A stretch of DNA of 64,000 nt, taken from contig NZ_JAMPKJ010000029.1 in NCBI RefSeq assembly GCF_039962115.1, positions 1-64,000 of the forward strand, written 5' to 3'. Below are positions 51,238 to 53,951 of this stretch, one piece after another. Position 1 is the first letter of the stretch. Each line of letters starts with the position of its first letter. The DNA is from Funiculus sociatus GB2-C1 (GTDB lineage Bacteria > Cyanobacteriota > Cyanobacteriia > Cyanobacteriales > FACHB-T130). The translations under genes and the position numbers were made by a program. Below the pieces are notes generated by a model. It was not told the DNA's origin. It saw only the letters and a list, made by a program, of their open reading frames with translations, and ran no database searches.

Positions 51238-51976
51238 TCAAAGATCAGCATCGCCATAGGTTTGTCGCCAGCTTTGGGCTTGCTGAAATTTTACGCCTGC
51301 TTTTGCAGCTGCTTCTCGGTCTTCACTGCGATCGCCTACCATTAAAACTGAGACAGGCGAATATTTTTGGATAACCAAATTTAGCATTCCTGGGTTTGGT
51401 TTGCGAAAATTTCGGCTCTTCCGTACCTAATATGCTAATCTGCCTCCTGCGATGCCCAAAATTGTTACTTAGCAGGAGTTTTGGGCATTATTTTAAATTG
51501 TTTTTGGCGGTAGAGGCGCTAAGAAGCCCCAAAGGTTTCTATTCCAGGCTTTTCAGCCCTTTAAACTAATAGTTTGGCATACCAAGTAATGAAGAACCAA
51601 AATTTCCAGACTCGGGATGCTTGCTGTAATTAAGAACTTGGTTTTTCGTTACGCAGAAACACTTTTTACCATCAAAATCTGGAGAGAAATAAATTTCTTC
51701 GATTTCTGGCAATAATTCCAGCGTGTACTGCTGTTCTTTGATGCAACTTTGGAGGGATTTTTTGCCACTGGCGACACCAGCTTGATTTGTCACGCCGACA
51801 ATTTTTCAACCAGTAGCGGCGAAATATGCGATCGCATTCTCAACACCTTCGATAATCTGTTGATCGCGCGGACGCTGGATAAACTTATTACCTGAGAGCG
51901 GTTGCCTCACAGTACCATCCATGTCCAATATTAATAGGTTTATATCTGCGGTTATTTCTCGATCTTCCTGCTCCAT
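51238..51976 (-). pseudogene. HAD-superfamily phosphatase pseudogene
   Basis: From ATG at 51976 the minus strand reads 'LLILDMDGTVRQPLSGNKFI' with the HAD motif DMDGT, then 'ATG-stop-KIVGVTNQAGVASG', where an in-frame TGA replaces a likely Trp codon. Reading continues to SGNF at 51599, where a 185-bp insertion breaks the gene. Past the insertion come 'RKPNPGMLNLVIQKYSPVSV' and 'LMVGDRSEDREAAAKAGVKF', the usual HAD motifs III and IV, and a stop at 51238. Removing the insertion and one target copy leaves 546 nt, exactly 182 codons. The family is the histidinol-phosphatase/GmhB or polynucleotide 3'-phosphatase type. The gene is dead by insertion plus nonsense. Confidence 0.85.
51406..51606. mobile_element. 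185-bp MITE with terminal inverted repeats and 8-bp target duplication
   Basis: The element spans 51414-51598, flanked by AAAATTTC on both sides (51406-51413 and 51599-51606). Its ends, GGCTCTTCCGTACC and, in reverse complement, GGTTCTTCATTACTTGG, match at about 19 of the first 27 positions. It encodes no transposase. An internal inverted repeat (GATGCCCAAAA/TTTTGGGCAT) is present. The GGCTCTTC ends and 8-bp AT-rich target copy suggest mobilisation by an ISL3-family transposase; that is from memory of the family. Confidence 0.8.
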
Positions 51977-53526: not shown

Positions 53527-53951
53527 GAGATTATGACAAAATCTTCACAGGACTACTTCCTTCTATAGTTTCCTGTCTTTACCCTGCCTTTTCAGCGTCT
53601 GCGATAGCTCGTTTTTCTTGTAATCTAAGCCTACCCACCCACAAAATCTCAACCCTCAAAAAGAAAACCCCAGGCTTATCGCCTGGGGCAAACATCAGGG
53701 TGCATCTACTAATCTTTGTTTCCATTAGCAAGGTAGTCTCCTCCGGAAAACTCCAGATTTATTTTTTGCCGATGGTTCACCGGATGCGGGAAATGGTTGC
53801 GCCTGCCGCTGAATATAGCGGTAGATCTTATCCTCTGCGTTTAAAGGGCTAGAATCAACCGCAGAGGATTAGGAGAGACTGGAATTATTCGTTTCTGTCT
53901 TGGAGTTGATTCCATATAAACCCAAAAATACTCCTTGCTTCTAAAAAGTCG
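53527..53951. other. gene-free stretch between convergent genes
   Basis: A hairpin terminator (53668-53688) and a second inverted repeat, TCCTCTGCG (53831-53839) with CGCAGAGGA (53860-53868), lie here. The CGCAGAGGA type recurs at 54993. No coding frame is seen. Confidence 0.5.
53668..53688 (-). terminator. intrinsic terminator on the minus strand
   Basis: CCCCAGGC, loop TTATC, GCCTGGGG. Read on the minus strand the stem is followed by TTTTCTTTTT. It should end transcripts from the permease gene at 53952, and the stem alone may also slow plus-strand transcripts from the CIA30-SDR gene. Confidence 0.75.

Follow-up and report, generated by a model that had tools for sequence, protein, structure and literature searches.

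The closest described system is a MITE of Microcystis aeruginosa PCC 7806, an ISL3-type element of 187 nt that is present in 31-33 identical copies (PMC11448079). Its ends are GGCTCTTCG, it is bounded by 8-nt direct repeats, it has been linked to ISL3, and it splits the genes sbp and livG (PMC11448079). Nezha (Zhou et al. 2008) is described in the passage of PMC10969869 that cites it as a cyanobacterial MITE, and as far as that description goes it is like the element reported here.

We analysed a stretch of 64,000 nucleotides of Funiculus sociatus GB2-C1 (the window), in which a 185-bp element lies inside a phosphatase gene (Table 1). The element resembles the Microcystis MITE in its length (185 against 187), in ends starting with GGCTCTTC, in its 8-nt direct repeats and its stem-loop, in having no transposase, in the match of its ends to the ISL3 family and in being inserted inside a protein gene (PMC11448079). 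It differs in that its five copies are diverged, whereas those in Microcystis are identical and far more numerous, and in that the inverted repeat, given as 9 nt there, spans about 27 imperfect bp here; the two were likened by their published or observed description (PMC11448079). With ISL3 insertion sequences (PF01610) the window MITE shares the ends and the 8-bp AT-rich duplications, but there is no transposase gene in its 185 bp. Neither the element nor the event is out of the ordinary: both belong to a well-known kind, that of the Microcystis MITE, here in another lineage, and the window MITE seems to be unnamed in the literature searched. The locus provides a fully documented recent transposition, with copies, duplications, a likely parent IS and empty sites in what is apparently the same species, in a second cyanobacterial lineage beside the published case. 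In annotation, the repeat can be entered as an ISL3 MITE, and the gene that it splits as a pseudogene.

Table 1. Features of the locus and further copies of the element (positions without a contig are those of the window)
Feature	Position	Strand	Remark
MITE (ISL3 type), non-coding	51414-51598	+	one of 5 full-length copies in this genome; the others are 91-96% identical to it
Left 8-bp target duplication AAAATTTC	51406-51413	.	single copy at the FACHB-40 empty site
Right 8-bp target duplication AAAATTTC	51599-51606	.	single copy at the FACHB-40 empty site
Left terminal inverted repeat GGCTCTTCCGTACCTAATATGCTAATC	51414-51440	+	19/27 against the right end; 22/25 against this genome's ISL3 IS ends
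Right terminal inverted repeat GGTTCTTCATTACTTGGTATGCCAAAC	51572-51598	-	21/25 against ISL3 IS ends
Stem-loop, then T-rich stretch (ATTATTTT)	51451-51489	+	terminator-like shape; 10-sequence alignment
5' part of split HAD-IIIA-type phosphatase gene	51607-51976	-	DMDGT and TNQ motifs
3' part of split gene	51238-51413	-	RKPNPGM and GDRSEDREAA motifs, TGA stop
In-frame TGA, codon 57	51806-51808	-	TGG (Trp) in FACHB-40 and 5 other orthologues
Further full-length MITE copy	C51:24827-25010		own perfect AT-rich 8-bp duplication
Further full-length MITE copy	C80:10113-10296		own perfect AT-rich 8-bp duplication
Further full-length MITE copy	C20:45931-46115		own perfect AT-rich 8-bp duplication
Further full-length MITE copy	C51:1477-1661		own perfect AT-rich 8-bp duplication

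The element and its ISL3-type ends

A sequence-only reading of the window had described a MITE flanked on both sides by an 8-bp copy, with imperfect inverted repeats of about 27 bp at its ends. Both details were found as described, and the imperfect ends match at roughly two thirds of their positions (Table 1). MITEs are taken to be shorter than 500 bp and to lack a transposase; this element is well within that size and has no long reading frame of its own. It occurs in five copies with five perfect 8-bp duplications, and both occupied and empty sites exist. An Rfam search of the 185-bp element gave no match. Judged by its structure, the segment is a non-autonomous element (MITE) with ISL3-type ends, and the genome copies together with the empty sites in relatives bear out the earlier assignment. 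Its derivation from ISL3 is indicated by ends that agree with those of the genome's own IS at 21-22 of 25 positions, a complete IS being present in another genome (G002), and by the 8-bp AT-rich target duplication, which is as for the IS.

It had also been proposed to look for full-length IS elements with the same ends, and this search led to a multicopy ISL3 IS in the same genome, seen by its ends, and to the complete relative in G002. The genome of the window (6.47 Mb in 142 contigs) has one full-length ISL3 transposase (PF01610), on C121, with one TAA in frame, and the ends of this complete copy differ from the MITE-type ends. Identical or near-identical ends of an ISL3 transposase (PF01610), 42 residues long, were found at six contig ends, and the IS end GGCTCTTCAGTACTTAGTATGCTAA at 11. 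When these contig ends were paired by the adjoining 8 bases, C18/C87, C80/C21 and C115/C63 agreed at 8/8 and C12/C104 and C68/C64 at 7/8. This pairing by neighbouring bases shows a multicopy IS with 8-bp duplications inside which the assembly breaks; because the contigs break there and the interior of the IS is missing, the genome sequence yielded no intact transposase bounded by exactly these ends. The duplications that link the three 8/8 pairs are also usable for ordering contigs. The relative in G002 is 1437 bp long, has the same ends and an 8-bp duplication (AACAATTT), and encodes an intact 419-aa transposase with the PF01610, Zn-ribbon and HTH domains of ISL3. It seems likely that the multicopy ISL3-family IS of the genome, or a close relative of it, supplied the transposase for the MITE.

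Very probably, a DDE transposase of the ISL3 family acted in trans on a 185-bp non-autonomous element with ISL3-type ends and inserted it, by cut-and-paste or copy-out, at AAAATTTC in the HAD-IIIA-type phosphatase gene, which would have duplicated the 8 bp. It is quite improbable that a transposase of another family that makes 8-bp duplications moved the element and that the ISL3-like ends arose by convergence. The MITE and IS ends are indeed not identical, 3-4 of 25 positions being different, but both MITE ends start with GGYTCTTC and have TATGCNAA in common with the genome's ISL3 IS and the complete IS of G002, and all of these elements have 8-bp duplications. Convergence is further opposed by the reversed-pattern control of the IS end scan, which gave no match in any genome, and by the same ISL3 link of the Microcystis MITE (PMC11448079).

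Copies, empty sites and timing

According to the sequence-only reading, the element should recur, and relatives should not have the same sequence as part of an intact gene. A genome search with the 185-bp segment gave the four further full-length copies listed in Table 1, and the five copies carry five different duplications. Only the window copy is intragenic; by the ORF lists, the other four are intergenic or at a stop codon. A sixth full-length copy was found in Trichocoleus sp. FACHB-40. Matches of 14-37 bases in the own genome (E 3-7) were dismissed as chance.

At 1e-5 the MITE matched 12 of 293 genomes of the order, and full-length diverged relatives are present in other genera of the order. 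Those in four genomes of one other family (G134, G244, G068 and G197) are 173-185 bp long and 70-78% identical, and two of them are bounded by perfect 8-bp duplications (AAGTTAGT and ACAAAAAT). A match in G186 (L124) gave no alignment and was excluded from the relatives, and no copy was found in the plasmid records, phage records and viral contigs searched. Four elements of 184-207 bp in G006 and G035 (L091-L094) have ends of the same kind and a different interior; they are without clear duplications and were not counted as members, and they may represent additional MITE families that belong to the same IS group.

FACHB-40, found by an exact-pattern scan, is the nearest strain, and its genome is apparently listed as the same species. 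At the site of the window insertion it reads GCGAAAATTTCCAGAC, with one AAAATTTC and no element, and the flanks are likewise joined without the element in five more distant relatives (G002, G003, G004, G029 and G035). The 185-bp sequence within an intact gene was found in none of the relatives compared. The alternative that the gene originally contained the 185 bp, as an intervening sequence or a linker, and that relatives have lost them can practically be discarded: nothing beyond presence in one strain favours it, and it is refuted by the four copies with perfect duplications at unrelated sites and by the six empty sites, one of them in the same species.

Of the five genome insertions, FACHB-40 lacks four and shares one, that at C51:1477, where the flanks of the two strains agree at 94% over 3 kb; from this pattern the MITE appears to have moved recently. 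At the empty sites in FACHB-40, the matches to the two flanks overlap by exactly 8 bp for the C80 copy, by 6 bp for the C20 copy and by 11 bp, in an A/T run, for C51:24827. After the strains had split, either the four copies were gained or FACHB-40 lost them; the perfect duplication around each favours a gain.

The split phosphatase gene

The interrupted gene had been taken for a HAD phosphatase, and its motifs DMDGT, TNQ, RKPNPGM and GDRSEDREAA do stand in the order found in HAD proteins. An intact orthologue scored 55.3 bits against the HAD-IIIA profile TIGR01662 (HAD-SF-IIIA, cut-off 44.6), and in Pfam 33.6 with PF08645 and 33.3 with PF13242 (cut-off 22 for both). The predicted family is that of HAD-IIIA-type phosphatases; an identity as GmhB or HisB phosphatase was rejected, the equivalog cut-offs being far from reached.

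Together with 51599-51606, the 5' part of the gene reads to SGNF. When 51414-51606 were removed, the minus strand gave the proposed 546 nt, or 182 codons including the stop, from the ATG at 51976 to the TGA at 51238-51240, and the rejoined protein aligned end to end with intact orthologues (181-188 codons) at 74-76% identity. The proposal that removal restores the frame exactly was right as to the register, but the frame is not open, since the in-frame TGA, which had also been pointed out, remains at codon 57, where all orthologues read have TGG. Removal of the element thus gives back the register and no working gene. The insertion ends the reading frame a few codons inside the element, ahead of the conserved RKPNPGM motif; added to the change of Trp codon 57 to a stop, this makes the window gene a pseudogene. 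An intact paralogue, 56% identical, remains at C58:3771-4274.

At 12 of 123 columns the window gene stands alone against agreement among the five others; the corresponding figure for each of these five is 0-5. Part of this excess comes from its being the outlier, and relaxed selection may account for the remainder. The FACHB-40 orthologue (L103, G040:C68) is open and has its own 24-nt in-frame deletion adjoining the insertion site, independent of the lesions of the window gene; because of this deletion, the species may be in the course of losing the phosphatase gene.

The internal stem-loop and an RNA match in the window

In the alignment of 10 sequences, 92% of the cells of the internal stem-loop were paired and five pairs had changed on both sides, while slid versions were only 39-49% paired. 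One of 500 shuffles scored as high, the shuffles ignoring the relatedness of the sequences. The C51:1477 copy has a perfect stem of 18 pairs, and diverged full-length relatives share the stem-loop with compensatory changes. We regard the pairing as good, though not conclusive, evidence that the structure has been conserved. Its function as a terminator is only a suggestion, since a terminator scan with strict stem-loop and T-tail rules did not list it. It is conceivable, though we lean against it, that selection has maintained the stem-loop throughout an old MITE family spanning several cyanobacterial genera, for example as a terminator or an aid to transposition. If true, the element would be more than two ends enclosing random filler.

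Elsewhere in the window, a single-copy Rfam match to NsiR1 (nitrogen stress-induced RNA 1) was observed on the minus strand at 53659-53711 (49.1 bits, cut-off 39). NsiR1 is tied to heterocyst-forming cyanobacteria. As Trichocoleus does not form heterocysts and the sequence can also be taken for a GC-rich, terminator-like hairpin, this match may be due to chance.
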